A stretch of DNA of 51,882 nucleotides from a virus, in IMG/VR virus record IMGVR_UViG_3300047393_000041, positions 64,001 to 115,882 of that record. One strand, written 5' to 3'. The stretch's first letter is position 1. Each line of letters opens with the position of its first letter. The notes below the pieces were generated by a model that made no database searches, was not told the origin of the DNA, and saw only the letters and a list, made by a program, of their open reading frames with translations. The position numbers and the translations under genes were made by a program. Shown in pieces: positions 1,845 through 49,665 of this stretch.

Positions 1845-2834
1845 TTAATATACTTTGGTAAGTACACAATTTTGAGATTGTATTGAATTAGCTGCATTTA
1901 ATGTTATCCATTCAGCTGTAATAGATAATGCATTTACAACAGTTGTATCAAATGCTGTATTATCTACTAATGCAAAATTTACACCATCTATACTAGTATT
2001 TGCATTTTTATTATAACTAAATTGACCATTTGTAAATAACTCAGCAACTCCTAATCCTCCAATTTTTGTTATTGTAAAATCAAGAAGAATTTCAAAATAT
2101 TTATTTGTTGTAATATTTAATGTAAATACACCTGCATCAGCTATTATATTTCCATCTGACTTCACTCTTATACGAATGTCCTCATTGTTTGCACAACTTA
2201 AATATCCACAAATTTTAGCTGTAAATGAATCACCAACTTGAAAAGCATTAGCTGGGACACTCAATGAACCAACACCTGTACCAATTAAACTTGTTTCACC
2301 TGAAGCTGGTACAATTATAGTTCCTAATGCTGTTTGAGCAAATAATCCATTAAATCCTGGACTACCAGGGATTCCTTGTATTCCTTGAGGTCCTTGCACT
2401 CCTTGTTCTCCTTGCACTCCTTGTATCCCTTGAGGACCTTGATCACCAGGAGGTCCTTTAATATCTCCTGCATCAAACCATTCTGTACCATTCCAACTCA
2501 TTAATGATCCATCAGATAAAAGAATCCATGCATCACCAATATTAACACCAGGAAGACTTCCTGCTCCAGCTAGAAAAGCTGCATAATCTGCATATGAACC
2601 AAGAATAGTTACAGAGTTACCTGCACTTCCTTGTGGTCCAGTGTTTCCTTGAATCCCTTGAGGACCAGGATTTCCTTGCTCACCCTGTTCACCTTGTGGA
2701 CCTTGAGGTCCTGGAGGTCCAACTATGTCAGAAGCTATACTAGTTATTAACTGATCTAAGTTAAGCCAACCTTTGTATCCTCTACAAGGTTTACATAACT
2801 GTTCCCAAAACCCTGCTTTGATAAATGTTGCCAT
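1845..2834 (-). CDS. Collagen-like tail fibre
   Basis: This 329-residue fibre begins with MATFIKAGFWEQ and GYKGWLNLDQLIT. The same anchor-like motif opens the short protein at 3842-4276. Two Gly-X-Y collagen-like blocks follow (about residues 39-70, starting GPPGPQGPQGEQGEQG, and about 126-160, starting KGPPGDQGPQGIQG). They are separated by a small domain with VNIGDAWILLSDGSLMSWNG, a common phage-fibre insert before Gly-rich stalks. The last 165 residues form a beta-rich domain (VGDSFTAKICGYLSCANNED and onwards) of the kind that caps collagen-like phage fibres. Collagen-like stalks in phages trimerise, and the C-terminal domain is the likely receptor-binding or trimerisation tip. The gene follows an AT-rich intergenic stretch of 83 bp containing an inverted repeat. 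Confidence 0.85.
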   Translation of the reverse strand: MATFIKAGFWEQLCKPCRGYKGWLNLDQLITSIASDIVGPPGPQGPQGEQGEQGNPGPQGIQGNTGPQGSAGNSVTILGSYADYAAFLAGAGSLPGVNIGDAWILLSDGSLMSWNGTEWFDAGDIKGPPGDQGPQGIQGVQGEQGVQGPQGIQGIPGSPGFNGLFAQTALGTIIVPASGETSLIGTGVGSLSVPANAFQVGDSFTAKICGYLSCANNEDIRIRVKSDGNIIADAGVFTLNITTNKYFEILLDFTITKIGGLGVAELFTNGQFSYNKNANTSIDGVNFALVDNTAFDTTVVNALSITAEWITLNAANSIQSQNCVLTKVY

Positions 2835-31614: not shown

Positions 31615-34600
31615 TTAACAAGGTCCATTATTAATTAATGTTACTTCAGGAGGTGTAACTACACTTCCACTTCGTGCACAGAATGTTTGAGTTGAAGGTC
31701 CTCCACCAGAGTTACCAATATTTACAGTTTGGGTAACTCCTGAACAATCAGTATAACTCACTGTTACAACTCCCACTGTTGTTTTACTTATTGTATATGA
31801 GAAACAAGCTATTGTTGTAGTTGTTGTTGTTGTTGCAGGATTACAGTTAACTATTTCAGTTATTACACCATCTACAACATTAAATATATTTCCACTAGAA
31901 AGTGATTCACTTGTAAAATACCAACCATTAGATACAGTTGAACAATCTGTAGATTCACCATTGTATACAGTTTCACCAATATTCAAACTTTCGACTTGAA
32001 TAATAATACTATTTATAGATATTGTAATAGGCATAACACTTTTAATATAAGTTATGGCAGAACATGCATCTAATTGACTTCCTGTAGAAATTACTGTTGA
32101 AGGAGGAGATATTATATTGTATCCTGTAGCAAAACTAGTTGTTGTTAAATTTGTTGGTCTCACGCAAGGTTCAATTACAACTACACCAGTTCCTGCTAAT
32201 ATACAATCTGTTAATGTAACTTGTCCTGCAAGTGCACAATCAATTACATGAGATTCTCCATCTAATCTACAATCTAAAATTATAGTGGTGGTAGTACTTG
32301 TAGTTGGTGGTGTAGGAACTAATGTTCCAGCAACAAAATCAAAATCATCACAACATCCATTTACTCCTGAATAGAAGAAGTTATTTTCAGCTATGTACCA
32401 GTTAGGAATATAACTATGAAAGCTTATCCAAGTTTTAGTGTTCATGTTAAATGAAAGAGTCCAAGATTTATTACAAAAATAATCTGAATCTTTTAAATCA
32501 ACAACTGTGGTTAATATTGAATCACCAACTAATTCTTCTATGTAAAATTCCTTAGTTGTAGAATTATATTTAACATTATTAGTTAGCGGAATATAATCAA
32601 GTTTAGTAATAATTACTCTATCAAATTTACTATCATACACTGCATGTAAACCTACACCATTAAAATGATTATCAGTATCAACTGTTGGAAAATATCTTAA
32701 TATTTCAAATGCTAAATGGTCTGTGAAGAATCTATTCATTCCAGAACCAAATGCAGATAAGTCTTGAGCTTGTGTACCTGCAATGAGAAATACTTGTCCT
32801 CTTTTAGCATCAATTGTTATTTGTCCATTTGGAATCTTCAATAACATTTTATTTTGACTTCCTACATATCCAAGATCTGTTTCAGCAAAATCTATTGGAG
32901 GAGCTCCTTTAAATAACATTGGATTACCAACATAAGCTGCTTGCGGATTACTTGTATCAATGGTAAGTAAGTTATTGTACATTAATGTCTTATTCTCAAA
33001 TCTAGCAAGTATAGCTCTATTTTGAATACCATCTAATGATATTAAGTTTCCATAGTTTTGAGGAAAATCAAAATATGAAACTGCTCTATATGTTAACCAA
33101 CTGTTCACTCTATTATCAGCATCTGTATTCTGTGTATCAGAATAGATTGCTCTAAATGGATAATGTGTATAGCAAGCTTTTCCATCCCAGTCAGGAGGAA
33201 GATGTGTAAATGTATTTTCTTTATTTTGTTTAGAGAATGTTACATTATATGTATATGTATTATCATTAGCTATACTAACAAAATCTTCCTGTAACCAATC
33301 ATCAGGAATACCTGTTGATACATGTGGCCAGAAATCACCTTCTCTATTATTAAATGCTTGTCTAAGATCTGTATTATAAGAACTCTCACAATAGAAGTTA
33401 GGAACACCATATGCAAATAAATAAAAATATCCATCATAGAATGTTCTTTGAGATCCTGCATTAGGAGGAGGATATAAAGTTGGATCATTAGGACAATCAA
33501 ATTCATGGGCTTTATATGATATAATATTAGAAAGTAATCCTGATCCATTATTTGCATAATCTGATAATATAGATCTAGCAGAATGCCAGTATTTTGGATA
33601 AGCTATATTACCAATCTCATCATAAAATACATCACTATCATCTGGAGCATTAACTCTATTATCAATAAAGAATGGAAGTTTAGTTTTAAATGCAAATCTA
33701 CTTATAAATGTATCTCCGCCAAATATTGTAGAGCTTCCTGTAGTTTTAGTATTTTTTTGAAATCCTGTATCAATAGTAACATAAGAATATATTTGTCCCC
33801 ATTGATTAACAAAAGTATTTTTCAATGATGCGTAATATGAAACAACACTAATAGCTTGTTCGTTAGCAGGTGTTGCACAAGCACTGCTGTCACCTATAGT
33901 AAATCTGGATACATCAGTTACTCCTAACGCAGCCATGTTGACACTAGAACTAGGGAAAGGTAATGCTGTTTTTGATTCATCTGTTTTTAAATAAACAGAA
34001 GATTCTCTTTGATAATTATTTATATTAAAATCATCACCTACATTTTGTACTCCAGGAATTAAGTATCTAGATAGATCTATATATCGCTGTTTGATACCAA
34101 TATTATTAGGTATAGATGTATTATAATCATAACTAGCTGTAGAGTTAAATGATTGTGCATAGTTTCTTCTTGTTATACCATTTATATATATTTGTAGATA
34201 TGCTTGATATGTTGTAAACATAGCAGTAGCATTAAATTGACTTGTAATAGCTCCTAATCTACTAGAACTATCTAATGCATCTTCTTGTGCTTCTTTTGAA
34301 AGTAATCTATATTTAGCATTACTTCTGACTTGTACAAAATGCGCAGATCCTTTACCAAACATTACATTCTCCAGTTTAAGAGTATCTCCTAAAAATGGTT
34401 GACCAAATGATGTTTCAGGTGAATTAAATATTTGTCTATAACTATTATTAAATTGAGGCAAAGGACTTTCTACTCCACATGCATCAACTCTTACGGGATC
34501 TCTTTCATCAATTCCAGTATCATCACCACAATATTCTATACATTCAGGTTTAGGTGAACCTGGTTCAGTGTAAACAATATATTCAGTATATCCACTATCC

Positions 34601-36819
34601 CAGTTATTTGAACCTTGTAAATACACTTGTGTGAGTGCACCTTGAGTTCTATCTGTAAATTGAGCTCGCCATCCTTCACATGGATCAAAAAATCCTGGAC
34701 AATCACGATATAAATACCATACATCATAATTAGAATATGATATACATCCTACATTAGATGATAACATTACAGGTCCAGTGTTAGTTTGTTTTATTTGATT
34801 AAATGGTCCATTACCTAAGAATGTAGGTTTGTTTATTGAACACCAATCAAATACACCTAAACTCTCAAAGTTATGAGTAGCTAATTTATTAGTATTAGGA
34901 TCTATATATTGAATAGCTGTATATGGAGGTTTTCCTACTGGAAATTCATTAAATTTAAATATATTAATTTCAAAAGGTTGAGATTCTTTTGCCCAAGCAT
35001 TATTGGTTGTATTTAAAAAAGGATCTGCATTTAAATCATTATATGGATAGTTAGGAAAATAAAAAGATTGTTCTTCTCTTTTATATTTATTTACATTACG
35101 AAGAATTCCTTTACCTACAATAGATTTATTTGTTGCTCTATCTCCTCTTAGTATTTTAAATCCTACTATAGCAGCTTTTTGTTCATCTGTAAGAGACGAA
35201 CTTCGAATTAAAGTATTTACTTGAGTAATATCTATTTTTACTCCTATAGGAAATACATTATTATTTTGAAAAGATAATCCTGTAAGAGGATCATAACCTA
35301 TAACTGGTTTTGTTATAGGAGATACTAATACATCTGGAAATTTATGATGTCTAATCTTTTGTCCAGCAAGATCTCCCCATACATTAGTATTGCATGGATA
35401 TTCTTCTGTAGATTCCCAATATGCAAATTTACCATAGTTGTAAGCAGTGGCATTACCAATGTTAGTTGTTGCATCTACAGGAGATGTATTAATTACAGAA
35501 GCAGTGTTGTAAATTTCCCAATAAGGAGCACTTGTTCCTTCACCAATGAAATCTTGATTTGTATTAGGAACACTAACTAAATCACTACTTATTGCTTCTC
35601 TACTTGGTATATGAAAACCATCTGTTTGTTTTCCATTTCTAAGTAGGAATGCAATTTCAAAAGCATACACTTCATCACGAAGATAACCTCTTAAGTTAGT
35701 TGCGTTTAATTCATCTGAATAGTTTTCAGTTGGTGGTAATTTATATGTTTCCCAAAGTAAAGTTATACCTGTTGCTATCTCTTGATAATTAATTCTATCA
35801 ATAGATACTAAACCATCCCATATAAGAACATCTTGTGCTGTAGTTAAATCTTCAGCTATATCATAATATGGAAACTTTTCAAATATATCATTAATAGATA
35901 ATCTTATGGCAGTAACATCTTGTCCTGTATATGTAACTTGTTTAGTTACATTATCAATAAAATATGTACCAACTAATTCTACAGAACTAACTGCATTTAT
36001 TGTTTTAATAACTGCTAAGTTAAAATATGTATATTCTCCTGTTGTATCTAAATTAGAAACATCAACAACAATTGACTTACCTACATTATAATTATAATTT
36101 ACCGTTGTAATACTAATATCTGCAATTGGTGTAGGGTTTGTAATAGAATAATATGATGTATATGGATTACCAGAAGCATCTGCATATTGAACAGCAAATT
36201 GATATGTACCAGCAATTAATGCTCCTCCAGTTGTAATGTCTACAACTGAAAGATCTGGAATATTAAAATTAGGTTGTATTTTTAATTGATTACAATCTAC
36301 TTCTGTAGTGTATGTAGGATTGCAAAGATCTGAGCCAGGAGTTAATGTATAAGGAATATTTTCAATATCTAAATATCTTCTTGGATTATATCCATCTGTC
36401 CAATATATTTCAGTTTTACAATTAGCTATCTTATGTACAACTTTATGTATTGGATTATCAATATTAAAATTAAGACATGCTGAATTAATTAATGTATGAT
36501 ATATACAATCATTATTATCCATATAACCTATCTCACATGAACCATCATTAGGATTAGTAAGAAAGAATATATGTTTACTTTTTTCGTTGATAAAATGCTC
36601 TCCTATTAATACATAGTTTTTTGGAAAAGATAAACAAAGTTCATTTCCTTGTTCATTCTGATAATTAACAGATGATGAATCAAAGTTTTCTAAAGCAGCA
36701 TTTAAAGCGTAAGTCAATGTACCTGGTTTAATTTGGTTCAAAGTTTGATCCATATTTAAACCAATAGATGCATTATTATATTCTGCCTTGATATTTCCTT
36801 GTGGTTGTTCTTCAGCCAT
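31615..36819 (-). CDS. Tail muzzle protein, extended by poly-Thr bead domains
   Basis: This 1734-residue protein is the best candidate for the crAss-like muzzle (the large tail nozzle protein beyond the ring proteins). The N-terminus NIKAEYNNASIGLNMDQTLN, then TYALNAALENFDS and EIYWTDGYNPRRYLDIENIP, is characteristic of that family. The gene order (ring-1-like gene immediately upstream) agrees. Residues 1 to about 1495 are the beta-rich muzzle. After that an unusual tail begins: PTTSTTTTIILDC, repeated C-x-L-x-G units (LDCRLDG, IDCALAG, TDCILAG), a bead domain ending GVITEIVNC, a poly-Thr linker (TTTTTTT near residue 1660), and a final Cys-containing bead ending NNGPC. These extra modules are shared with small proteins at 40420-44194 and are probably displayed outside. 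Confidence 0.82.
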   Translation of the reverse strand: MAEEQPQGNIKAEYNNASIGLNMDQTLNQIKPGTLTYALNAALENFDSSSVNYQNEQGNELCLSFPKNYVLIGEHFINEKSKHIFFLTNPNDGSCEIGYMDNNDCIYHTLINSACLNFNIDNPIHKVVHKIANCKTEIYWTDGYNPRRYLDIENIPYTLTPGSDLCNPTYTTEVDCNQLKIQPNFNIPDLSVVDITTGGALIAGTYQFAVQYADASGNPYTSYYSITNPTPIADISITTVNYNYNVGKSIVVDVSNLDTTGEYTYFNLAVIKTINAVSSVELVGTYFIDNVTKQVTYTGQDVTAIRLSINDIFEKFPYYDIAEDLTTAQDVLIWDGLVSIDRINYQEIATGITLLWETYKLPPTENYSDELNATNLRGYLRDEVYAFEIAFLLRNGKQTDGFHIPSREAISSDLVSVPNTNQDFIGEGTSAPYWEIYNTASVINTSPVDATTNIGNATAYNYGKFAYWESTEEYPCNTNVWGDLAGQKIRHHKFPDVLVSPITKPVIGYDPLTGLSFQNNNVFPIGVKIDITQVNTLIRSSSLTDEQKAAIVGFKILRGDRATNKSIVGKGILRNVNKYKREEQSFYFPNYPYNDLNADPFLNTTNNAWAKESQPFEINIFKFNEFPVGKPPYTAIQYIDPNTNKLATHNFESLGVFDWCSINKPTFLGNGPFNQIKQTNTGPVMLSSNVGCISYSNYDVWYLYRDCPGFFDPCEGWRAQFTDRTQGALTQVYLQGSNNWDSGYTEYIVYTEPGSPKPECIEYCGDDTGIDERDPVRVDACGVESPLPQFNNSYRQIFNSPETSFGQPFLGDTLKLENVMFGKGSAHFVQVRSNAKYRLLSKEAQEDALDSSSRLGAITSQFNATAMFTTYQAYLQIYINGITRRNYAQSFNSTASYDYNTSIPNNIGIKQRYIDLSRYLIPGVQNVGDDFNINNYQRESSVYLKTDESKTALPFPSSSVNMAALGVTDVSRFTIGDSSACATPANEQAISVVSYYASLKNTFVNQWGQIYSYVTIDTGFQKNTKTTGSSTIFGGDTFISRFAFKTKLPFFIDNRVNAPDDSDVFYDEIGNIAYPKYWHSARSILSDYANNGSGLLSNIISYKAHEFDCPNDPTLYPPPNAGSQRTFYDGYFYLFAYGVPNFYCESSYNTDLRQAFNNREGDFWPHVSTGIPDDWLQEDFVSIANDNTYTYNVTFSKQNKENTFTHLPPDWDGKACYTHYPFRAIYSDTQNTDADNRVNSWLTYRAVSYFDFPQNYGNLISLDGIQNRAILARFENKTLMYNNLLTIDTSNPQAAYVGNPMLFKGAPPIDFAETDLGYVGSQNKMLLKIPNGQITIDAKRGQVFLIAGTQAQDLSAFGSGMNRFFTDHLAFEILRYFPTVDTDNHFNGVGLHAVYDSKFDRVIITKLDYIPLTNNVKYNSTTKEFYIEELVGDSILTTVVDLKDSDYFCNKSWTLSFNMNTKTWISFHSYIPNWYIAENNFFYSGVNGCCDDFDFVAGTLVPTPPTTSTTTTIILDCRLDGESHVIDCALAGQVTLTDCILAGTGVVVIEPCVRPTNLTTTSFATGYNIISPPSTVISTGSQLDACSAITYIKSVMPITISINSIIIQVESLNIGETVYNGESTDCSTVSNGWYFTSESLSSGNIFNVVDGVITEIVNCNPATTTTTTTIACFSYTISKTTVGVVTVSYTDCSGVTQTVNIGNSGGGPSTQTFCARSGSVVTPPEVTLINNGPC

Positions 36820-39015: not shown

Positions 39016-40239
39016 TTATATTCGTTGTTCAAATTCTGCAATCTTGCCTAGTACAGGATCATATACAAGAGCTAATGCAGCTCTAACTGAATGGACAAAA
39101 TTATTATCTAAGTGCCATCTATCAGTTCCTGATAAGCTAGGCATTTGTTGTATTCTTACTCCTTTAATTTCTTTAGCCATGTAGTGATGTTTATCACCTG
39201 TGTGGATTTCTCTATATTTAGCATTACCAAAGAAATGACTATATTCTGGATGTGTTGCAAACAATAATGGAAGATCATCTATTTTACAATTTCCATGGTG
39301 CCATCCAATAAATGTATTACCTAACACCTTTGCTTTAATTACACTATGTTCTCTTATAAACTCTACATCATAATCATCTTTGAAATATACATCTAATGCA
39401 TGTGCTAGATAAAAAGATTTAGTTCTGTCATGATTACCTTGTACAAGTACAACTGTAACATCATTACAATGTTGTCTTAGCATATTAATTGTATCTACTA
39501 AAACTGAGAATCCTAATTCATATTCAGAATGATAATCAAGAATTGTATCTTGTGGAGTACCTTGTGTAGTTTGGTTTTGGTAGTTATCAGTATGAAAGAA
39601 ATCATTTGATATTGGTAGTACAATTGTATTTATATGGTAATTAGCTTTAACTTTTTGAACTAACGATTGAGCTATGTTAAAATATCTTCTAGCTCTGTCT
39701 GCTGGATCATTATCACCATCTACACATTTTTTAGCTAAATGATAATCAGCTATTGATATTTCTATATCTACATGATCTTTATCAGTAAAACCATATTCTT
39801 TATTTATAGAAATATTAGTTGGTTTGTAGTTTTCTAAAAACTTAGCAAAGTCTTCAGGAGAGTAATCTTTTGCTTCTTTTCTTTTTGAAAAAACTGAGGA
39901 AGTAAAACTTCCACTTGGTAACATCTTAGACCAGTAGTTTGTTATAACATACTTATCTAAATTTATCTTATGTAATTTAGCTAACTCAATATCATCTTTA
40001 GGTTCAAATGCACTAGTAACAGTGCTTTCTATTGTTCCTTTCTCAACATTTACTTTTCTAATTTCTCCTGTAGAAACATTAAGTTCCATAGGAACTTCTG
40101 TATCTTTTTCTCTTAATTCTTTTAAAAGTTCATTCACTTCAAACTCACTTATTCCTAGTTTTTCAGCATAGAATTTTTTACTTTTCTTCTGACGTAATAA
40201 CTCTTCTAACTTGAATAATAAATCTTGATTTTCAGACAT
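39016..40239 (-). CDS. Calcineurin-like metallophosphoesterase with N-terminal HTH-like region
   Basis: This 407-residue enzyme carries ordered metallophosphoesterase motifs: AD165YH167, SN212D213FFH216 (in place of GDxxD), QGN269H270D271, GWHH315G and H346TGDKHH352. Most metal ligands are present, so a two-metal phosphoesterase or nuclease is expected. Residues 1-45 (LRQKKSKKFYAEKLGISEFE, VNELLKELREK) look like a helix-turn-helix, suggesting DNA or RNA binding. It is unusual inside a tail structural cluster. It has its own promoter (40267-40298) after a terminator that isolates it from the upstream bead genes, and it ends 3 bp before the ring/adaptor gene. It could process phage or host nucleic acid, or be a fibre-linked enzyme. 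The substrate is unknown. Confidence 0.85.
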   Translation of the reverse strand: MSENQDLLFKLEELLRQKKSKKFYAEKLGISEFEVNELLKELREKDTEVPMELNVSTGEIRKVNVEKGTIESTVTSAFEPKDDIELAKLHKINLDKYVITNYWSKMLPSGSFTSSVFSKRKEAKDYSPEDFAKFLENYKPTNISINKEYGFTDKDHVDIEISIADYHLAKKCVDGDNDPADRARRYFNIAQSLVQKVKANYHINTIVLPISNDFFHTDNYQNQTTQGTPQDTILDYHSEYELGFSVLVDTINMLRQHCNDVTVVLVQGNHDRTKSFYLAHALDVYFKDDYDVEFIREHSVIKAKVLGNTFIGWHHGNCKIDDLPLLFATHPEYSHFFGNAKYREIHTGDKHHYMAKEIKGVRIQQMPSLSGTDRWHLDNNFVHSVRAALALVYDPVLGKIAEFEQRI

Positions 40240-40419: not shown

Positions 40420-41061
40420 TTATGGAATATATGTTATATCTAATCCACCAGATCCACCACCACCATCAGCACCTGGAGCTGCTGGTACTGTACTAGAAGC
40501 TCTCACTCTAATTTGATAAGTATATGTTCCTGCAGTTAAACTCATTGTATTCGTTGAGTATTGAGTTCCTGTAGATGATGATTTACTTGCAATAAAGTTA
40601 GTACCATTTATTGATATAGTAGTTTCAAGGGTAGTCCCATGATAAGTGGTTATCGTAGCATAAGCTTTTACTAAATAAGATCCAGTACCTGTAACAAGAA
40701 TAGTTCCTCCAGTACAGATTTTATCATCTATCATAGGGTCAGGTGTATTGGAATAACTAGAATATGCTCCTACTGAAAATCCGCATACCGTAGATGTAAT
40801 TGCATTCACTACAGTAGTAGTTGTAGTAGTTGTTGGTGTTACACCACCTAATGTTATATCAATATAATTTACACAGGCCCCTGTTGATTTAACTCTAATT
40901 ATTGTTGCACCATCAGGTACTACTGTAGAAGTGTAACCTGCAACTAATGCTGCCTTACTGACTCCTGTAGCAAATGCTGCTGAATATGAATCAATATTAG
41001 TGTAAAGATTGAATGGTCCAGAATCTGCACCTGCTGTTGTCAATGTTATTAATGCTGTCAT
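40420..41061 (-). CDS. Short bead protein: GPF domain, poly-Thr linker, C-terminal jelly-roll-like domain
   Basis: This 213-residue protein has three parts. Residues 1-75 are the GPF domain (LTTAGADSGPFNLYTNIDSY, then GVSKAALVAGY and RVKSTGAC). A Thr linker follows (VTPTTTTTTTVV, about 76-88). The last part, of about 120 residues, is a beta-rich Ser/Thr/Gly domain ending GGGGSGGLDITYIP. It is the last gene before a strong terminator. No enzyme motif is visible. Similar N-terminal domains open the neighbours at 41099 and 43097 and the muzzle-associated protein. It is probably a decorating or fibre-like protein on the tail or capsid. Function is inferred only. Confidence 0.7.
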   Translation of the reverse strand: MTALITLTTAGADSGPFNLYTNIDSYSAAFATGVSKAALVAGYTSTVVPDGATIIRVKSTGACVNYIDITLGGVTPTTTTTTTVVNAITSTVCGFSVGAYSSYSNTPDPMIDDKICTGGTILVTGTGSYLVKAYATITTYHGTTLETTISINGTNFIASKSSSTGTQYSTNTMSLTAGTYTYQIRVRASSTVPAAPGADGGGGSGGLDITYIP

Positions 41062-41098
41062 TTTGTTTTTATTTTAAGTTGTTGTGTTATAATTTAAA

Positions 41099-41851
41099 TT
41101 AACATCCACTGCCTACAGTTACTATATTTGCAATTACGCCATCAGTTAATTCATATATTTGAATACCTGATCTTACTGCATCATAACTAATTGGTGTGAT
41201 GAGAGCTGGAGTTGTATAAAGTGTTACACCAAGTCCTAATGTAGGAGAATTTGAATATGCAGTAATTACTCCTGATGGAGTCCATGTTATTGCACCATTA
41301 CATCCAACTGTTCCTGCTGTTAGATTAAATGTATAATATGTAATTGGTGCAGGTGTAGTTCTAGTAGTAGTAGTTGTTGGTGTTACAGTTGTTATTGTTG
41401 TTGTAGTTGTTGGTGTTGAAGTAGTCGTCGTTGTGGTTGTTATTTCTTCTGCACTCCCTTGAATTGCACAATCTAAAACTATAACAGTAGTAGTTGTGGT
41501 TGTTGTTGGTATTACAGTTGTTGTTGTTGTTGTTGTTATTTCATCTGCGATTCCTTCAATTGTACAATCTAAAGCTACAGTAGTAGTAGTAGTTGTAGTT
41601 ACTTCATATGCATTTCCGTCAAGTTCACACAATGCAAGATATATATCAGTATAGTTTGAGCAAATCTCGTTTACAGATTGAATCCTAACAATTGTTGTAC
41701 CGTTAGGAATTTGATCTGTTGGATATCCAGTAGTCAATATTAATTTACTAATGTTAGTTGCAAATGGTACTGAATAACCTGTTACATCTGAATATAAATT
41801 AAAAGGACCTGTGTCTACTCCTGCTACTGTTAATAATATTATTCCTGTCAT
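41099..41851 (-). CDS. Bead protein with repeated C-x-L-x-G units and poly-Thr linkers
   Basis: Residues 1-75 of this 250-residue protein are the GPF domain (LTVAGVDTGPFNLYSDVTGY). Three copies of a short motif follow (ALCELDGNAYE, ALDCTIEGIADE, VLDCAIQGSAEE), each leading into a run of seven Thr. A longer Thr-rich linker comes next (residues of about 150-170). The C-terminal bead of about 80 residues begins YTFNLTAGTVGCNGAITWTP and ends DGVIANIVTVGSGC. That bead is homologous by eye to the C-terminus of the next gene upstream. The protein appears extended and flexible. The Thr runs are encoded by mixed ACN codons. The likely role is virion surface display. Confidence 0.7.
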   Translation of the reverse strand: MTGIILLTVAGVDTGPFNLYSDVTGYSVPFATNISKLILTTGYPTDQIPNGTTIVRIQSVNEICSNYTDIYLALCELDGNAYEVTTTTTTTVALDCTIEGIADEITTTTTTTVIPTTTTTTTVIVLDCAIQGSAEEITTTTTTTSTPTTTTTITTVTPTTTTTRTTPAPITYYTFNLTAGTVGCNGAITWTPSGVITAYSNSPTLGLGVTLYTTPALITPISYDAVRSGIQIYELTDGVIANIVTVGSGC

Positions 41852-41870
41852 TATTTTAAAATTTTACATG

Positions 41871-43037
41871 TTAAATATAAGAACACGATCCACCTATCTT
41901 TGTGGTAATACCTAATGTATTTCCATTTAAATTCCAGCAAGATGCAATAGATCTAACTGAATTTACAGTAGCAGCTACAGTAAGTTCTTTGTTTTGCCAT
42001 AATGATATACCAGGAATTAATGTTTTTGAACTTGAATATAACACTATTGTACCAGAAGCATTAAACACTACAGAATTAGAATTACAACTAATTGTACCAT
42101 ATGTTAAACTATGACTAAACCATACTACAGGTTTTAAAACTACTGATGCTTTTCCAGCTAATGTACAAATTTTTGCTTTAGTTGTAGTGGTAGTTGTTAA
42201 TTTTTTGGTAGTAGTTGTTGTTGTGGTTAATTTCTTAGTGGTAGTCGTAGTTGTTGTTAACTTTTTAGTAGTGGTGGTAGTAGTAGTTAACTTTTTAGTA
42301 GTGGTGGTAGTGGTTAATAGTTTTTTAGTTGTTGTACTTGTAGTAGATGCTGGATAAACAACTGTCATATTTCCAGCAAATGTACAAGCAGGATCTATAA
42401 TAGGATCAACTAAAACTCTAACTGAGTAACCATATTGACCAGCCTTTAGAGGTAAATAAGTTCTCCAAACCCAATCATTATTTGCCTCGATGTGAAAAGT
42501 TTCTATACCCTCAGCAGTTACTGTAGAACTCCACAACATTAATTCTTTACCAAGATCTGTAAATTGTGGACCACTAAGGTATGAAATTATAGCTCCAGCT
42601 GGAAGAGCTGTAAATCCACTACTGTTAGTAGCAGTGTTATTTGGAGCATCCCAATGAGCAATTCCTGTCTCTCTAAGTTTATCACCTAAATTTCCAGTTT
42701 CATTAGTTACATACTCGAGTAACTTAAAAAATTCATCACTCGATGGGATATGATATCCAACTGGTGCAAGTTTTTTACGTAATTTTGTATCTGTTTTTGA
42801 TGCTTCATTCCATATTCCTGCAACTGCATACCAGTTGTATAATTTACCATAAATTGCTCCATTTGCTGGATCATTTTTATAATAACACCAAGCTCCAGTT
42901 GTTAAATTTTTCCAATATGTTGGATTTGTTACTTGAGGAATTATTGTACCATCAGTATATTTAGACACATCTAAATTTTTAGCTGACCATTGTTGTGTAC
43001 CTATCTGTACTGTGGGTAATAATAATGCTGTTGCCAT
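41871..43037 (-). CDS. FSU-paralogous-type lectin-like domain plus poly-Thr repeats and bead
   Basis: Residues of about 8-210 of this 388-residue protein match the Fibrobacter succinogenes major paralogous domain pattern: IGTQQWSAKNLDV, GAWCYYKNDPANGAIYGKLY, NWYAVAGIW, GYHIPSSDEF, SSGFTALPAGA, LWSSTV and GYSVRVLVD. Then come C-x-F-x-G (ACTFAGN), a tandem run of KKLTTTTTTT decapeptides (about residues 235-285), another C-x-L-x-G unit (CTLAGKA), and a bead ending TKIGGSC. The FSU-type fold is often extracellular and ligand binding, so a host-surface binding role is plausible. The gene lies between two GPF-domain genes but lacks that domain. No signal peptide is present, fitting a virion protein. 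Confidence 0.78.
   Translation of the reverse strand: MATALLLPTVQIGTQQWSAKNLDVSKYTDGTIIPQVTNPTYWKNLTTGAWCYYKNDPANGAIYGKLYNWYAVAGIWNEASKTDTKLRKKLAPVGYHIPSSDEFFKLLEYVTNETGNLGDKLRETGIAHWDAPNNTATNSSGFTALPAGAIISYLSGPQFTDLGKELMLWSSTVTAEGIETFHIEANNDWVWRTYLPLKAGQYGYSVRVLVDPIIDPACTFAGNMTVVYPASTTSTTTKKLLTTTTTTKKLTTTTTTTKKLTTTTTTTKKLTTTTTTTKKLTTTTTTKAKICTLAGKASVVLKPVVWFSHSLTYGTISCNSNSVVFNASGTIVLYSSSKTLIPGISLWQNKELTVAATVNSVRSIASCWNLNGNTLGITTKIGGSCSYI
42185..42345 (-). repeat. 30-bp tandem repeat encoding KKLTTTTTTT
   Basis: About five units of 30 bp encode Lys-Lys-Leu followed by six or seven Thr. The units are imperfect at the DNA level (different ACN codons, TTA/CTA Leu), so they have diverged while keeping the peptide. 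The unit count may change by recombination or slippage. Confidence 0.8.
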
Positions 43038-43096
43038 TTATTAATTTTTATTATTATAATTATGTAAACTTTTAATCTTAACTTTATTATTGCTAT

Positions 43097-44194
43097 TTAA
43101 CATGATCTCATAATTTGCCATCCAGCCAAACCTCCAAAACCAGTTATTCTAACTGTTATATTAGGATTTACTGCATAATCATCACTAGTATATTTCCACC
43201 ACATTAATTGTTGAAAGTTAATCTTAAATCCACTGTATGCACCTATACCATCAATATTTTTTGCTAACAATAATGGAGATCCAGTTTCTGCAGTATATTC
43301 AGTTTGACGTGAGTATATTGGTAAACTATTAAAATCTCCTGACAATGAATATGCTCCAGTAAAACCATTCCATATATAGTGAGGATATGTTGACAAACCA
43401 TATTGTATATTATTACTAATATTATTAATATCATTATAACTAAAATATCCATCACTATAATAACGACAACTTAAATCGCCTGAATTATCAAATGGGCCTG
43501 AGTTAAAAACTGTAAAAATTGGATCTTGCTGACGAAGACTAAGATTTGGATTAAATATATTGTCGTTCCCATAAAAACTTCCTGATGTTGCTTTTTTGAT
43601 ACCATCATGAAGTATTTCAAATTTAATTGGAGCAGCATCTTGACGTAAGTTAAGTGTAACTACTCCTCCTTCAGGAGATAACTCAATAGTATATTCACGT
43701 TTTCCTGCTCCTTGTTTTAATATATAACAATCTAATGGTTGAAGATTTGTTGATATTGGTCCACTAGTTGTAGTTGTAGTTGTTGTATTAGGACATGTGC
43801 CTTGTATAACAAATGGTCCACATCCACTCCACGTATCACTTCTTGCACATTTAATATTAAAATATTGACCAGCACTTACAAAAGTAGACAGTATTTCATC
43901 ATTGCAACCAATCCAACGTATATCACAATCAGTTGCAGCTGGTCCATATCTAACATCATGACATGTAAGTTTAATAATTGGTGCAGGAATATTTATAATA
44001 CTATTACAGTCTCCTATAGAAATAATTTTAATATTATTTACTGTACTTGGAAGTGCTGTTGTAAGATAACCTATAATTAATTGATCTTTAGTCACTCCTG
44101 ATGCAAAAGGAATTGTGTAGTTATCAGCATCTGAATATAAATCAAATGGGCCTGTATTAGCTCCTGCTGATGTTAATTTAATAATTGATGTCAT
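43097..44194 (-). CDS. Bead protein: GPF domain, Cys bead, poly-Thr linker, large C-terminal domain
   Basis: Residues 1-72 of this 365-residue protein are the GPF domain (LTSAGANTGPFDLYSDADNY, then ISIGDC). Residues of about 75-135 form a Cys-rich bead (CDIRWIGCNDEILS, FNIKCARSDTW, IQGTCP) that resembles the last bead of the muzzle. TTTTTTT then leads into a 215-residue C-terminal domain starting LQPLDCYILKQGAGKREYTI, rich in Tyr, Asn and Gly. That domain may be a larger beta-sandwich or adhesin. No catalytic motif is recognised. It is the first of the run of bead genes and starts 36 bp downstream of a 55-residue gene. Likely a virion surface protein. Confidence 0.7.
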   Translation of the reverse strand: MTSIIKLTSAGANTGPFDLYSDADNYTIPFASGVTKDQLIIGYLTTALPSTVNNIKIISIGDCNSIINIPAPIIKLTCHDVRYGPAATDCDIRWIGCNDEILSTFVSAGQYFNIKCARSDTWSGCGPFVIQGTCPNTTTTTTTSGPISTNLQPLDCYILKQGAGKREYTIELSPEGGVVTLNLRQDAAPIKFEILHDGIKKATSGSFYGNDNIFNPNLSLRQQDPIFTVFNSGPFDNSGDLSCRYYSDGYFSYNDINNISNNIQYGLSTYPHYIWNGFTGAYSLSGDFNSLPIYSRQTEYTAETGSPLLLAKNIDGIGAYSGFKINFQQLMWWKYTSDDYAVNPNITVRITGFGGLAGWQIMRSC

Positions 44195-44230
44195 TTTGTT
44201 TTTATTTTAATTTAATTAGAAGTTCTTTTT

Positions 44231-44398
44231 TTATAACTCTATCTTGTCATAAAAAACCTTTGTTTCAAAATCATAGTAAGGATTTTCAAAGTTATCCACT
44301 AACAATTCTTCAACTAACATTTCATTGTCTAGCAAATAAATTTCTATTGCTGTAGCGTATAATAATTTACCTGTATTCTTATCTATTACTGTTTTCAT
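44231..44398 (-). CDS. Small acidic hypothetical protein, 55 residues
   Basis: ATG at 44398 opens a 55-codon frame ending in TAA, with product MKTVIDKNTGKLLYATAIEI and onwards. It is acidic with no Cys and no membrane segment. The N-terminal pattern V-I-D-K-x-T-G-K-L-L-Y resembles small proteins often found beside fibre genes in phages. The function is unknown. Its start is 5 bp after the stop of the YadA-like fibre, consistent with co-translation. Without it there would be a 208-bp gap between fibre and bead genes. Confidence 0.72.
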   Translation of the reverse strand: MKTVIDKNTGKLLYATAIEIYLLDNEMLVEELLVDNFENPYYDFETKVFYDKIEL

Positions 44399-44402
44399 AT
44401 TT

Positions 44403-46238
44403 TTAATTTGATATATTTATACCGTAATTCTTCCATCCATCACTCATAGAATTCATCTGCATAGCTACAAGTATCCAGGTCCCTGAAGTTGTAGAAAAAC
44501 TAGCTGTAGAAGGTATAAATGTTGTTGTAACAACATCTTCTCCTGTTAGGCTAGAAACTGTAGACATATAGAAACCTCTAATCAATCCAGCTCTAATAAG
44601 AAACTCTCTAGTAAAGGTTCCTTCTATAAAGTTAGAGTCAAGATCATACTTTCCAATCTGAGTAGCTCCTGACAAGGAGTTGATTGAGTTTGTATATACA
44701 CCTATAGTTCCAGTTGAATTTGCATTAATTTTTCCAAAACGAGTCTTTAATTTTAAGTAATCTCCATCTGTAAAGAAATTTGGGTCAATATATACACTAG
44801 CTGCCAAAGTTAGAGATGTACTACCACCACTTTCATTATATGTAGTTGTTCTTGCTGCTGTCTTATTATATATGGTACTGTCTACACTTCCATCTGCTTT
44901 TAAGAATTGTGAAACTAACCCTCCTGATTTCTTAAATGATGTGCCTAAAATTGAACCGTTTACTTGCAATTTGTCTACTCCATTATTAACTGTACCACCT
45001 AATAATAAGTTTCCATAAATAGCGGTATGAGTAATTGAGCTATTTCCTAACACTGTTGTATTACTTCCTAATCCTGTAGAATCATAACCGATTACTATTT
45101 GATTTGATTGTGTATCTGCAAGTGGAGATGTTCTAAACCCTATCATTACACTATTATATAAACTAGTGGCAATAGTTGATTTATTTGCTAACCATCTTCC
45201 TGAACTTTGTCCAAGTGCAACATTGCTTTGTCCAAGTACATTATTTCCTAATGCTGCTGCTCCAACTCCTGTATTTTGAATTCCAGTTGTATTAGCACTC
45301 AGTGATTGATTTCCAACTGCAGTATTCTGCCATCCAGTTGTATTATAAAACATTGATTGATGTCCAATTGCTACATTAGAATATCCACCTGTATTATAAT
45401 ATAATGAAGTATATCCTACTGCTAAATTAGAATATCCTATTGTATTATAGTATAATGTATATTCTCCAAGTGCAACATTGTAATATCCAGTAGTAGTATT
45501 AACTAATGATCTATATCCTATTGCAAAGTTATCACGTCCTGTTGTATTTCTACTCCCAGACGTAACTCCATTAAAATAATTACCAATAATATTAGAAATT
45601 CTAATTTCATTATTAACCTCTCCTGAACTATTTAAGAAAGTAGTTGTAGCAATTGAAGTTCCAATAGTTTTGATACTTAAAACTACTGTTCCATTAAAAT
45701 CAGTTGTAGGCACTATACTCAAACTAGTCACATCAGTTGCTCTTGGACCTGTAGCTCCTGTAGCAGTTACTCCACTTTTCACAGTACCTCCATAATTGAT
45801 AGTAATGCTTCCTGCTGTTCTTCCAGTAATTGTATAGGTAATCTGATAATATGTATCAATAACTGCTGCTAATGTAGAAATTAAAGGTCCTACACTTCCT
45901 GCTATGTGTGTGTAACCTGTTGCAAAATTAGTACCTGTCCAGTTAGTACCTGTAGCAGTTGTTGTAAGTTCTTCACCTAATGGTGCTGTATCACTTTCTA
46001 CTGTTCCTTTAAAAGATTTTAATCCTGTAATAGTTTGAACACCTGCGATATAAACAATCGAAGGATCTGATGTGCATAATTTTGTTTCTATTTTTTGTAA
46101 AGCTACTGAAAGAGTATCTTTATTTTGGATTCCTGTACATGTTAAATTTGGTCCAGCATAGCAAACAGAAGTTGAAGGTGTACATGGTTGACAATCTTCA
46201 CACCCACAGTTATTATCAATAGTTAAATATGGCCACAT
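44403..46238 (-). CDS. Tail fibre with YadA-like head repeats (fibre A)
   Basis: The N-terminus of this 611-residue fibre is Cys rich (CGCEDCQPCTPSTSVC), followed by GPNLTCTGIQNKDTLSVALQ and KIETKLC, a virion-anchor pattern that I recall from crAss-like fibres. The next module (residues of about 85-200; GTNWTGTNFATGYTHIAG) is shared with the fibre at 376-1824. Then come six 17-residue YadA-type repeats (for example YSNLAVGYTSLYYNTGG) forming a left-handed beta roll in known trimeric adhesins. After IYGNLLLGGTVNNG comes a short linker and a 145-residue C-terminal domain (SLTLAASVYIDPNFF onwards), the probable receptor-binding or trimerisation tip. No enzyme motif is seen. Confidence 0.88.
   Translation of the reverse strand: MWPYLTIDNNCGCEDCQPCTPSTSVCYAGPNLTCTGIQNKDTLSVALQKIETKLCTSDPSIVYIAGVQTITGLKSFKGTVESDTAPLGEELTTTATGTNWTGTNFATGYTHIAGSVGPLISTLAAVIDTYYQITYTITGRTAGSITINYGGTVKSGVTATGATGPRATDVTSLSIVPTTDFNGTVVLSIKTIGTSIATTTFLNSSGEVNNEIRISNIIGNYFNGVTSGSRNTTGRDNFAIGYRSLVNTTTGYYNVALGEYTLYYNTIGYSNLAVGYTSLYYNTGGYSNVAIGHQSMFYNTTGWQNTAVGNQSLSANTTGIQNTGVGAAALGNNVLGQSNVALGQSSGRWLANKSTIATSLYNSVMIGFRTSPLADTQSNQIVIGYDSTGLGSNTTVLGNSSITHTAIYGNLLLGGTVNNGVDKLQVNGSILGTSFKKSGGLVSQFLKADGSVDSTIYNKTAARTTTYNESGGSTSLTLAASVYIDPNFFTDGDYLKLKTRFGKINANSTGTIGVYTNSINSLSGATQIGKYDLDSNFIEGTFTREFLIRAGLIRGFYMSTVSSLTGEDVVTTTFIPSTASFSTTSGTWILVAMQMNSMSDGWKNYGINISN
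45231..45536 (-). repeat. Six 51-bp repeats encoding YadA-like 17-residue units
   Basis: Six consecutive 17-residue units share the pattern x-x-N-[FVLT]-[AG]-[IVL]-G followed by a Ser/Thr/Leu and Asn-Thr-x-Gly end. A partial seventh unit follows. Unit DNA has diverged but periodicity is exact. Confidence 0.85.
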
Positions 46239-46286
46239 AGATTTGAAGTGTATAAATTATATAATAAATTTTAAATATAAGTTGTA

Positions 46287-47027
46287 TTAAGGTCTATATT
46301 GAATATAATAATAACCTGAACCTACTGGAGGTGTAAGAACTGGTGTTCCAGCTACTCCATTACAAACATATATTTTTTGCCATGTTCCATATCCTGCACC
46401 ATCAATATCAAATTTACCAGTTAATGAACCATAATAATTTTCTACAACATAAGGAACCATTCTATTATAATAGTTTGTAGTTATTCCAGATGTAGCAGAT
46501 AAATATGTATTGATTAAACTATCAAGTTCATCATATCTTACATAGTTTGTATCAAGATATAAAGCTAATGCACATAATGTATCTATTGTAGCTTGAAGCA
46601 TAGCATGTGTTCCTGAAGAAGGTGTTATAGAAGGTGTTGCATCTGTAAGACATTTTACATCATAATCAGCTTCAATTACATCTAGCTTACCATCAATCAC
46701 TACTATATCGGCAACAATACTATCTATTTGTAACTGAAGGCTACAAGCAGCTTGTATAAGAGCTTTTGATATATCTACAATAGTTATATCTCCAGAGATA
46801 GGAAGAAATGAACTCACAAGAGTACATATAGTTATACCAGTAAGATCTATCTTTATACCTGTTCCATTTAATGCAGATACAAGATATGTAGTTATAGCTT
46901 GTTCTACATGTGATAAAGAATCACCTGTTTGAATTCCTAAAGTAGGAATATCTATTCCTGTATATTTAACACATTGATCACTTGTAGTTTCAATGCATCC
47001 ATTATAACAATTTTGGCAATTAGACAT
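46287..47027 (-). CDS. Tail/fibre structural protein with CxxC anchor
   Basis: This 246-residue protein begins MSNCQNCYNGCIETTSDQCV and contains IDIPTLGIQTGDSLSHVEQA, the same Cys-cluster plus GDSL-x-x-V layout as the N-terminus of fibre A. This points to a shared attachment to the virion. A helical middle (LQLQIDSIVADIVVIDGKLD) and a region THAMLQATIDTLCALALYLD follow. The last 80 residues (YYNRMVPYVVENYYGSLTGK, GYGTWQKIYVCNG) look like a small beta-rich tip ending YYYIQYRP. It precedes fibre A by 48 bp and could be a fibre base or a short fibre. No catalytic motif is visible. Confidence 0.7.
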   Translation of the reverse strand: MSNCQNCYNGCIETTSDQCVKYTGIDIPTLGIQTGDSLSHVEQAITTYLVSALNGTGIKIDLTGITICTLVSSFLPISGDITIVDISKALIQAACSLQLQIDSIVADIVVIDGKLDVIEADYDVKCLTDATPSITPSSGTHAMLQATIDTLCALALYLDTNYVRYDELDSLINTYLSATSGITTNYYNRMVPYVVENYYGSLTGKFDIDGAGYGTWQKIYVCNGVAGTPVLTPPVGSGYYYIQYRP

Positions 47028-47039
47028 ATTATATTTATT

Positions 47040-47717
47040 TTATAGTGTTATTGTTGTTGTTGTGGTTGTAGTAGCTGGACAAGATCCTTCTGTAAAAATA
47101 ACTTGAGGATTATTGTAAGTTACTGATAATGGATTTAATTCTGTAGTAATATCACTTACACTTCCGCTTCCTCCAAATCCCATCCACCAGAAATACCATC
47201 TTTCTGGATAATATATATTATTGTAATTTAATGTTGCAGAAGCAGTAAAATCACTTTGTGTATCATATATATCTCCTTGATATGTAGGATAACCCTCTCC
47301 ATCTAATCCTGTAAAAGTAATAGTACCACTAGTCATAAATGATGCATCAAATGTACTGATGTTTACACAAATAGATAAAGGAAATAAAGCTACTGTAGTA
47401 GTAGTAGTTGTAGTTAACATTCCTTCAGGTGTAACTATAGGTTTAATATTGCAACCTAAAGTTAATAACTTAACTTTACTTGCAATTCTATTTATAGACA
47501 CATCACATATATAATTAGGATTATAATTCTTATATGTTAATATTCTTCTATACGCAATTAGTTGAATCATTATTCCAGCAGGAACAGACTGATTCAACAT
47601 AAATGTAATATTATTAAATAGACCATTAGCATAATACGCTAATTTACAATCTATCTCTTCAATCAAGTTAGGAATGTTTGCACATTCAGGGCAATTAGTT
47701 AGTCTAGGTGATAACAT
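47040..47717 (-). CDS. Tail protein with conserved N-terminal domain and terminal poly-Thr
   Basis: The N-terminal 95 residues of this 225-residue protein (LTNCPECANIPNLIEEIDCK, then AYRRILTYKNYNPNYICD) resemble a domain that I recall from crAss-like tail proteins. TTTTTTTVALF (residues of about 104-112) links it to a bead of about 100 residues (GLDGEGYPTYQGDIYDTQSD, YPERWYFWWMGFGGSG) ending in GSCPATTTTTTTITL. The protein therefore stops in a naked poly-Thr tract, as if a further bead had been lost or is joined by other means. No enzyme motif is seen. Spacing to neighbours is short (9-12 bp). Confidence 0.7.
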   Translation of the reverse strand: MLSPRLTNCPECANIPNLIEEIDCKLAYYANGLFNNITFMLNQSVPAGIMIQLIAYRRILTYKNYNPNYICDVSINRIASKVKLLTLGCNIKPIVTPEGMLTTTTTTTVALFPLSICVNISTFDASFMTSGTITFTGLDGEGYPTYQGDIYDTQSDFTASATLNYNNIYYPERWYFWWMGFGGSGSVSDITTELNPLSVTYNNPQVIFTEGSCPATTTTTTTITL

Positions 47718-47726
47718 AATTTGATA

Positions 47727-47822
47727 TTATTTATTTAACTTACCTGCACAAGTTGCGCATAGTCCATCTTTCAATTGACATCCACATCCCACATTAGCTC
47801 CGCATGAATTACATTGTGCCAT
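47727..47822 (-). CDS. Cys-rich mini-protein, 31 residues
   Basis: ATG at 47822 encodes MAQCNSCGANVGCGCQLKDG and LCATCAGKLNK, ending in TAA. Six Cys are arranged CxxC, CxC, CxxC, consistent with a zinc-binding knuckle or a disulfide-bonded miniprotein. It starts 2 bp after the stop of the 187-residue gene. That gene itself ends in a Cys-Gly-Cys motif (NNCGCSGNNYQ), so the two may interact. The function is unknown. Its location inside the tail operon supports a real gene despite its size. Confidence 0.62.
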   Translation of the reverse strand: MAQCNSCGANVGCGCQLKDGLCATCAGKLNK

Positions 47823-47824
47823 GA

Positions 47825-48388
47825 TTAATAAAAGTTTAATTGATAATTATTTCCAGAACATCCACAGTTATTTTTTATAAAACTATCTAACATATTATTT
47901 GCTTGAATATATAATTTATTAGATTCAAAATCTGCACAGTTATTAGCTGCAGCAATTGATCCTTGTATAAAGAAATTAATTGTATTCAATGTTACAGTTG
48001 ATTGTGTTTTGATAGCTCTATCGCATTCCATAAGATCTAATTTAAGAAAAGCTCTATCGAACTTCTCTTGTATTTTATCTGTACGCATTATTGTTCTCTC
48101 TACAAAGTTTAAATATGCAGGAGCAACAGAATATTTTAATCTGTATATTCCATCAGGTAAAGGTTGTTCATTACCCACTTCAGTAATACCAAGATCTACA
48201 GAATTAAATAAATTATATGAATTTACAACAAAAGGAAGTACAGCTATACCAAAACTTGGTACAGTTATTTCAATTGTTGGAGTAGTTACAATAGGTGGAT
48301 CATCAGGGTAAGTTGAAGTATCAATCACTCCTAAAGTTAATACATTATATGTAGGGATTACTGTTATATCTAATTTTAAATCTGCCAT
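47825..48388 (-). CDS. Conserved tail-module structural protein
   Basis: This 187-residue protein has an N-terminal beta-rich half (IEITVPSFGIAVLPFVVNSY, LPDGIYRLKYSVAPAYLNFV) and a helical half (TDKIQEKFDRAFLKLDLMEC, NNCADFESNKLYIQANNMLD) ending CGCSGNNYQLNFY. The PDGIY-x-x-KYSV motif occurs in proteins that I recall from crAss-like tail modules, but no function is documented to me. It follows the strong terminator at 48407-48445. Its transcription therefore needs readthrough or a promoter that I cannot see in the 89-bp gap. Confidence 0.68.
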   Translation of the reverse strand: MADLKLDITVIPTYNVLTLGVIDTSTYPDDPPIVTTPTIEITVPSFGIAVLPFVVNSYNLFNSVDLGITEVGNEQPLPDGIYRLKYSVAPAYLNFVERTIMRTDKIQEKFDRAFLKLDLMECDRAIKTQSTVTLNTINFFIQGSIAAANNCADFESNKLYIQANNMLDSFIKNNCGCSGNNYQLNFY

Positions 48389-48406
48389 GGTTTTATATTA
48401 AGAAGT

Positions 48407-48445
48407 TAATAAAAAGGGGAGAGAGTGTTTTACTCATCTCCCCTT
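48407..48445 (-). terminator. Strong rho-independent terminator after the 395-residue structural gene
   Basis: On the minus strand AAGGGGAGA pairs with TCTCCCCTT (nine perfect pairs). It is extended by GAGT/ACTC after a one-base bulge, with loop AAAAC and a following TTTTATTA tract. This is the most stable simple hairpin in the window and separates the capsid genes from tail/fibre genes. Confidence 0.9.
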
Positions 48446-48477
48446 AGTATTAGGAATTTATTATTTTCTACTTATCC

Positions 48478-49665
48478 TTAAGGAATGTTAGTAGAAGTTG
48501 TTGTAGTTGTTGCAGGAGCAGCAGTACTAGTAGTTGTAGTTGTAATAACACAACCGTTGTTAGCATCAATTAAACCTAAAGCAGCTGCTAATACAGTTTC
48601 GATTGCAGCAGCAATACCACTAAACAAACCTCCTCCGATAGGAGTAGCAGCATTTGGAGCAGCGATGATCACTGTACTATCTTCTTGAATATAATCACCC
48701 CATTGGTAAGCAGACTTATCAAGTTCATTGAATTTAATATAGTAAGTATCATAAGTTACACCACCTGAAACATAAGTTTCAAAGTTTTCATTGTAACCAT
48801 TCATTCTATATAAATGTTTCAAGTAACCTGCTTGGTAGCTATAGAAGTTTTTCTCTAATTGAGCAATCTCTGCAGATTGACCTGTTGGATAAGAAGCACG
48901 TTGAGTAATAGCTGTAGTTGCAACAAGGTTACAAGCATCAGCAACAATAAAGTCAGCAGTAGTAGCTGGACCAGAATATACAAAAGTTCTAAAAGACATT
49001 CTGTCATATTCAAAAGGGAATGCAGCAACATCACATGGTTGACCATATTTTGTTAAAGGTTTTCCTGTAATACGTAAAATAGTTCCACCTACATTTTCAA
49101 ATGTATAGAATGTGTTAAAACTAATATTATCAGGATTGATACCAGGAGCTTGTGCAGTTAATTTAGCAATCAACTCATTGATTAATACATTAGGATCTGT
49201 ATCAGCACATGGATCACCACCACAATCACAACAAGGTGCTTGGATAGTTACTGAACGTGTGAATCCATTGAAATACAATGTATCAATATAAGAAGAATGT
49301 GCACGTAAAGTTAATGTTAATGTGTCTCCACATTGAGCAGTAAAGTTAGTTACATCAGTAATTTGGTTTGCTGCTGTTGGGCAACCTACCACTTTGTACC
49401 ATTCAGATACATTAGATCCTGTAGAAGAAATTCTATCAGATCTTTTAGATGCTTGAAGGTAAGTGTTTTGTCTACCTTGTGCAATGTAGAAATAAGGATT
49501 AGCAGTAGCAATATTAGTAGCATCTACAGCAACATATTTACTGCTAAAAATACCTACTTGACCTGCGGTAAGGTCTTGTGTTGAGATTGCTCCCATACCA
49601 GAGCTAGGAAGAGTAGTCTGTCCTACTGGAACCACAAATAATGTGGTTAATGAAAAATCAGCCAT
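48478..49665 (-). CDS. Abundant structural protein candidate with C-terminal poly-Thr tail
   Basis: This 395-residue protein opens MADFSLTTLFVVPVGQTTLP and has beta-rich domains with a Cys cluster near residue 140-150 (CCDCGGDPCAD). A helical region (AEIAQLEKNFYSYQAGYLKH, LYRMNGYNENFETYVSGGVT) and a hydrophobic Ala-rich stretch (SGIAAAIETVLAAALGLIDA) follow, then VITTTTTSTAAPATTTTTST at the end. The richer use of GCA/GTA/ACA codons and the dedicated strong terminator suggest high expression, such as a decoration or tail-shaft protein. It lies third after the capsid gene. I do not recognise a named family with certainty. Confidence 0.72.
   Translation of the reverse strand: MADFSLTTLFVVPVGQTTLPSSGMGAISTQDLTAGQVGIFSSKYVAVDATNIATANPYFYIAQGRQNTYLQASKRSDRISSTGSNVSEWYKVVGCPTAANQITDVTNFTAQCGDTLTLTLRAHSSYIDTLYFNGFTRSVTIQAPCCDCGGDPCADTDPNVLINELIAKLTAQAPGINPDNISFNTFYTFENVGGTILRITGKPLTKYGQPCDVAAFPFEYDRMSFRTFVYSGPATTADFIVADACNLVATTAITQRASYPTGQSAEIAQLEKNFYSYQAGYLKHLYRMNGYNENFETYVSGGVTYDTYYIKFNELDKSAYQWGDYIQEDSTVIIAAPNAATPIGGGLFSGIAAAIETVLAAALGLIDANNGCVITTTTTSTAAPATTTTTSTNIP

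Follow-up and report, generated by a model that had tools for sequence, protein, structure and literature searches.

A heptathreonine-linked protein set in a crAss-like phage and its association with PHROG 4417, a predicted glycosyltransferase family

The window, the whole stretch of 51,882 nucleotides analysed here, corresponds to bases 64001-115882 of a 115,882-base virus record and encodes, on its minus strand, a series of proteins with runs of consecutive threonines (a run of seven is written T7). The muzzle gene (31615-36819) matches Pfam crAss_MUZ PF25731 (8e-36) and phrog_37948 (1.9e-118). Its C-terminal extension contains a T4 (32284-32295), a T7 (31813-31833) and two of the small domains that we call beads, giving the architecture MUZ-linker-b3-T7-b0. 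A conserved gene for an SbcD-like exonuclease (39016-40239, minus strand; phrog_704, 2.7e-50) adjoins the cassette genes; it is not part of the display system and served to fetch relatives. The protein at 40420-41061 consists of an MTxLITL anchor, a T7 (40813-40833) and a unique bead. The protein at 41099-41851 has an MTxLITL anchor, four T7 (41579-41599, 41516-41536, 41486-41506 and 41420-41440), two T5 runs, short LDC.I.G motifs and a C-terminal bead in common with its neighbour at 41871-43037. This neighbour begins with a Fib_succ_major domain (PF09603, 7.8e-31) and continues with five T6 or T7 runs spaced by KKL (42180-42314). At 43097-44194, an MTxLITL anchor is followed by a T7 (43766-43786) and a large bead, and at 47040-47717 an MLSPR anchor is followed by a T7 (47394-47414), a bead and a bare terminal T7 (47052-47072). 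The MADF protein (48478-49665) has a bead-free tail with two T5 runs (48529-48543 and 48496-48510).

The first-pass annotation had named six proteins and the muzzle as users of Thr runs, and all of them do carry such runs: the window contains 18 runs of at least five Thr, compared with 0.45 expected from composition-preserving shuffles. Exactly seven Thr make up 12 of these runs (four in 41099, three in 41871, two in 47040 and one each in 40420, 43097 and the muzzle), and the T7-coding matches in the entire record likewise number 12, every one inside the window. The protein at 41871 has two T6 runs besides its three T7. The runs are encoded by a mixture of ACA, ACT, ACC and ACG. Two proteins were said to end in bare runs, and we found that 47040 ends in TTTTTTTITL and 48478 in TTTTTSTAAPATTTTTSTNIP. 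The C-terminal beads of 41099 and 41871 are homologous (29% alignment, E 7e-11), as are the N-terminal anchors of 40420 and 43097 (45% alignment, E 8e-21).

The portal gene lies outside the window and retrieved 136 phage records by tblastn, many of them Crassvirales, with coverage up to 98%. On the sequence matches of muzzle and portal together, the record is assigned to a crAss-like phage, in Crassvirales or a sister lineage. In Cellulophaga phage phi4:1, virion proteins of the matching interval are known by mass spectrometry and include tail proteins and pectate lyases. The record encodes a GT2, a Gly_transf_sug protein and a RecA; no reverse transcriptase, as a diversity-generating retroelement would require, was found among the larger record proteins, a subset of the ORFs, that were scanned. 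Elsewhere in the window are a collagen-like triple-helix protein (1845-2834, minus strand; PF01391, 1.9e-13), a single 4044-residue ORF without a Pfam match (10255-22389) and, near the record end, 54 bases with 92.7% identity to a Cellulophaga phage tRNA-Met (51469-51522). Outside the window, a gene resembling NAMPT or nicotinate phosphoribosyltransferase adjoins a phosphoribosyltransferase gene (L090:13422-15687), a pair that likely serves NAD salvage.

Searching with the SbcD-like exonuclease gave 435 relatives, of which 80, at 79-89% identity, were kept (loci L009-L088). Coding-strand ORFs of these 80 loci contain 316 T5, 122 T6, 539 T7, 75 T8 and a single T9, and loci of the PHROG 4417 gene, described below, contain 225 T7, 37 T8 and 5 T9. 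Runs of mixed Ser and Thr likewise peak at 7-8, longer linkers are made of several such units, and in many linkers Ser substitutions and long ST repeats stand in for T7. Viral contigs selected solely by a T7 pattern show long tails reaching 60. Neighbouring Thr codons match each other in 38.2% of cases versus 38.4% expected (0.382 vs 0.384) and therefore give no sign of slippage; with codons randomly mixed and lengths sharply bounded, we rejected a microsatellite origin of the runs. The identity of T7 DNA is 0.797 within a genome and 0.795 between genomes, compared with 0.791 for random Thr codons, the longest exact match between T7 pairs has a median of 6 nt, and identical MADF tails are encoded by eight different DNA sequences among 11 genomes. 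The codons are mixed as at random, and therefore selection acts at the protein level: as read from these sequences, what it maintains is a property of the protein, a stretch of about seven Thr, with no recognisable site in the DNA. A positional codon preference was also seen in L009-L088, where ACA is favoured at both ends of T7 runs and ACC occupies the seventh position in only 14 of 539, compared with up to 120 mid-run.

Across relatives, five anchor families occur in a fixed order (MADF, MLSPR, MAYP/MANC, MTxLITL, muzzle) and are followed by variable bead strings, making 105 distinct anchor-bead combinations in 426 proteins. The claim that beads reappear in different combinations is supported: beads with 92-100% identical DNA are found at other positions and behind other anchors in other genomes. 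The picture of beads throughout needs amending at the N-termini, where the pieces are fixed anchors and, in 41871, the Fib_succ_major domain. "Empty" forms that end just past the run account for 44 of 118 MTxLITL and 18 of 58 MLSPR proteins, and MADF lacks a bead in 53 of 53 proteins, its tail being constant. Bead pairs inside one genome never exceed 71% identity; sharing is high between genomes and low within them, as if duplicates were purged or never arose internally. The structure prediction proposed for the beads yielded, for an anchor-T7-bead protein (L075), an AlphaFold model that is beta-rich with a pLDDT of 75 and has no PDB match below E 0.001. The anchors are not assignable to named parts of crAss001, because the MADF, MLSPR and MTxLITL anchors, compared by sequence with solved structures along with the muzzle and the PHROG 4417 protein, gave no meaningful match.

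The PHROG 4417 gene is located on the minus strand at record positions 62560-63573, ending 428 bases before the window start, and encodes a 338-residue protein without a Pfam match. PHROG 4417 is annotated as "unknown function". Its full-length profile recovers crAss-type and Gram-positive-type members at E 1e-53 to 1e-156, and 6/6 tested members fall in it. The AlphaFold2 model (pLDDT 92.8) has a GT-A fold; Foldseek matched it to glycogenin and UGGT with probability 1.00, the comparison with glycogenin-1 gave a VIA Z of 14.2 over 228 residues at 3.6 Å, and viral GT8 proteins match as well. The DxD residues D108 and D110 are invariant in 37 sequences, and DSD is kept in distant members. Fold and motif together identify the protein as a predicted GT-A glycosyltransferase of GT8-like type. 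In relatives that were read closely, the gene has on one or both sides a gene for a small protein with a T7 end, and in the record itself its neighbour has a T5 run. An ORF with T6 or longer lies within 1.5 kb of the gene in 69/69 loci having both flanks, and Thr-run density is 0.89 per kb near the gene versus 0.05 per kb further off. In a comparison that sets one clade against others and so is not phylogenetically independent, the PHROG 4417 gene is present in 13/13 near-complete T7 phages (100 kb or longer) and GT2 in 12/13, versus 0/13 T7-less crAss-like phages for both.

The family extends to phages of Lactobacillus, Lactococcus, Enterococcus, Staphylococcus and Chryseobacterium besides the crAss-like ones. 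We found distant homologues in 74 phage records, nearly all of them Gram-positive phages, with 27-35% identity to the crAss-type enzyme and 27-64% to one another. In each of 14 diverse phages sampled, poly-Thr or Thr-rich sequence lies no more than about 2.5 kb from the homologue, taking the form of T5 or longer runs in 11 and of TTVxP or TETQ Thr-rich repeats in three. The major tail protein ends ...GTTTTTSTTTTTTSSTTTTTTTQASSK in phiFL1A, ...TTTTTTTTTTHHD in Lactococcus phage 1706 and KTTTTTTTTTRHD in the lactococcal prophage bIL285 (L. lactis IL1403), and the major capsid protein of phage 4995_1 ends ...GTTTTTTKPTTTTTTTQA. The gene immediately 5' of the homologue is dense in Ser and Thr in 9/14 cases versus 5/146 other genes (p 2e-8). 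In a wider Gram-positive IMG/VR sample, a Thr-rich ORF was found within 1.5 kb in 51/70 loci and was absent in 19/70; four of those 19 were inspected, and two have a Thr-rich ORF about 2 kb away and two lack one by the threshold used. In the reverse direction, a homologue lies within 870 bp in 6/94 contigs selected for a T7 ORF versus 0/26 without one. Chryseobacterium phages also carry distant homologues near virion proteins with poly-Thr or Thr-rich tails. Linkage of a predicted phage glycosyltransferase to a Ser/Thr-rich virion protein was thus found across samples (69/69 and 14/14 loci, and 51/70 within 1.5 kb). Bacterial homologues at 28-42% identity (L340-L349; Chitinophaga, Sphingobacterium, Mucilaginibacter and others) are mostly without nearby Thr runs.

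Further sugar-modifying genes vary between genomes. Relatives add GT11, a TOD1/MUCI70-like glycosyltransferase and methyltransferases, and one relative (G001; L247:4194-6758) carries a small T9-tailed protein, a sulfotransferase (PF13469, 2.6e-14), a weak GT9-like protein and an APS kinase (PF01583, 1.7e-20), a set that may provide a sulfation pathway of the phage's own. The record's Gly_transf_sug protein was rejected as a conserved enzyme, having no match in 20 relatives. Some of the GT2 enzymes may act on DNA, because their genes are located near thymidylate synthase and nucleotide-kinase genes.

Taking the predicted fold and the gene linkage as the basis, we consider that the best explanation, and one with a better than even chance of being right, is that T7 is both an O-glycan acceptor and a stiff spacer, that the beads are swappable heads and that the PHROG 4417 protein adds sugar. 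The Thr-run proteins are probably tail and adsorption proteins, whose fixed anchors would dock on the virion and whose heptathreonine stretches would hold small, beta-rich beads, exchangeable for one another, away from it. The T7 runs, including the bead-less tails, would most likely be the O-glycan acceptors; the first sugar would come from the phage's own GT-A-fold protein, and the glycan would be finished by the variable enzymes (GT2, GT11, Gly_transf_sug, methyltransferase and, in one relative, sulfotransferase with APS kinase). So modified, T7 would form a stiff, protease-resistant spacer and possibly also a coat that masks. Among the ideas of the first-pass annotation, its passing remark on glycosylation is the one most strengthened by new evidence, which comes from the PHROG 4417 gene.

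The same annotation proposed that beads recombine at the linkers, and in this it was borne out: between close pairs, 95-100% identity runs into the linker, gives way to a different bead string or to none, and returns at a linker or the stop codon (for example L019/L022, L061/L077, L046/L073 and L049/L052). In pairs whose two flanks each reach 95% identity or more, 11/11 left junctions, representing roughly seven independent events, lie within 2 bp of the linker, and 61/134 distinct junction clusters lie within 6 bp of one, versus 15% of positions expected (p about 1e-16). This clustering, and the RecA encoded by the record, would suit the further suggestion that the shuffling is driven by DNA recombination hot spots in the Thr-coding repeats. 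We regard that suggestion as improbable, since T7 DNA is as varied as random Thr codons, with no conserved junction DNA of the kind that shufflon- or attC-like shuffling would use, and shares a median of 6 nt as its longest exact match; the eight DNA versions of the MADF tail, the 71% ceiling on bead identity inside a genome and the many right-hand junctions that coincide with the stop codon instead of a repeat also speak against it. The clean linker junctions are better explained by a functional filter on the protein, which favours exchange at domain boundaries, than by targeted recombination, because the linker DNA is not conserved: in this view, bead turnover between genomes has its breakpoints at the spacers because only recombinants that are in frame and joined at domain boundaries survive. 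Separately, two clean insertions, about 490 and 710 bp long and both outside the Thr-run genes (near L046 11211 and 19602), distinguish the otherwise closely similar genomes L046 and L077 and are possibly mobile elements.

Two other accounts leave the glycan out. Thr-rich linkers are common low-complexity spacers, and GT-A folds modify DNA, lipids and glycans too, so the runs might be neutral flexible spacers and the PHROG 4417 protein, with many acceptors open to it, might act elsewhere, its gene lying nearby by coincidence of virion-gene clustering; bead swapping itself needs no glycans. A neutral spacer has no need of a fixed length, whereas runs of pure Thr end abruptly at 7-8; many terminal runs, those of the empty MTxLITL and MLSPR forms, join nothing; and the linkage to the glycosyltransferase is seen again in unrelated Gram-positive phages, whose runs form C-terminal tails. 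We judge this account unlikely, if still the most credible of the competitors. In the other account, T7 is a protein-protein docking strand, such as an inserted beta-strand, or a protease processing site, which fixes the length at seven; the sharp length optimum, the hydrophobic V, I, A or L that commonly comes next after the run, the excess of odd over even lengths in the T3-T8 counts and the constant MADF tail fit such a role. The replacement of T7 by Ser substitutions and long ST repeats in many linkers is unlike a strand-register motif, however, and the runs are found at numerous places next to beads that are not related, leaving this the least probable account.

The preferred reading, glycosylated T7 as acceptor and spacer, has partial precedents. 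Mycobacteriophage virions are reportedly O-glycosylated by phage-encoded glycosyltransferases. There, O-glycans are on capsid or tail proteins; here, the enzyme is predicted and belongs to the unannotated PHROG 4417, and the candidate acceptor is a defined heptathreonine that is also the joint of swappable modules. PHROG 4417 resembles the GT8 family (glycogenin and LgtC; also the related GT-A enzymes UGGT and GlyE) in its predicted GT-A fold (Z about 13-14) and conserved DxD, with only about 10% sequence identity and no Pfam or NCBIfam match. Mosaic phage adhesins include T-even gp37/gp38 with their glycine-rich boxes and streptococcal phage fibres with collagen-like repeats. Like these, the present proteins have a conserved attachment end, exchangeable distal domains and simple repeats at the junctions; unlike them, several anchors per genome draw on one bead pool, and the linkers are of Thr with unconserved DNA. 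The phage crAss001 (structural atlas PMC10172136) has homologues of the portal and muzzle, whereas it and 12 other crAss-like phages tested have neither T7 runs nor a PHROG 4417 match. The open-access literature that we searched (poly-threonine, crAss-like linkers, virion glycosylation) yielded nothing on poly-Thr tails in phages.

In its broadest form, the proposal is that PHROG 4417 is a widespread glycosyltransferase family that specifically O-glycosylates short poly-Thr tracts of virion proteins, and that one crAss-like clade came to use this tract as the universal joint between modules, so that the surface can vary in two independent ways, by the bead displayed and by the sugar on the spacer; we hold this wider statement to be evenly balanced between right and wrong. 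It offers a testable function for an unannotated family, and it implies that major tail and capsid proteins should carry a specific chemical modification. If true, it would explain the otherwise puzzling poly-Thr tails of many phage structural proteins, and for crAss-like phages it suggests that surface diversity may arise through domain swapping combined with variable glycans.
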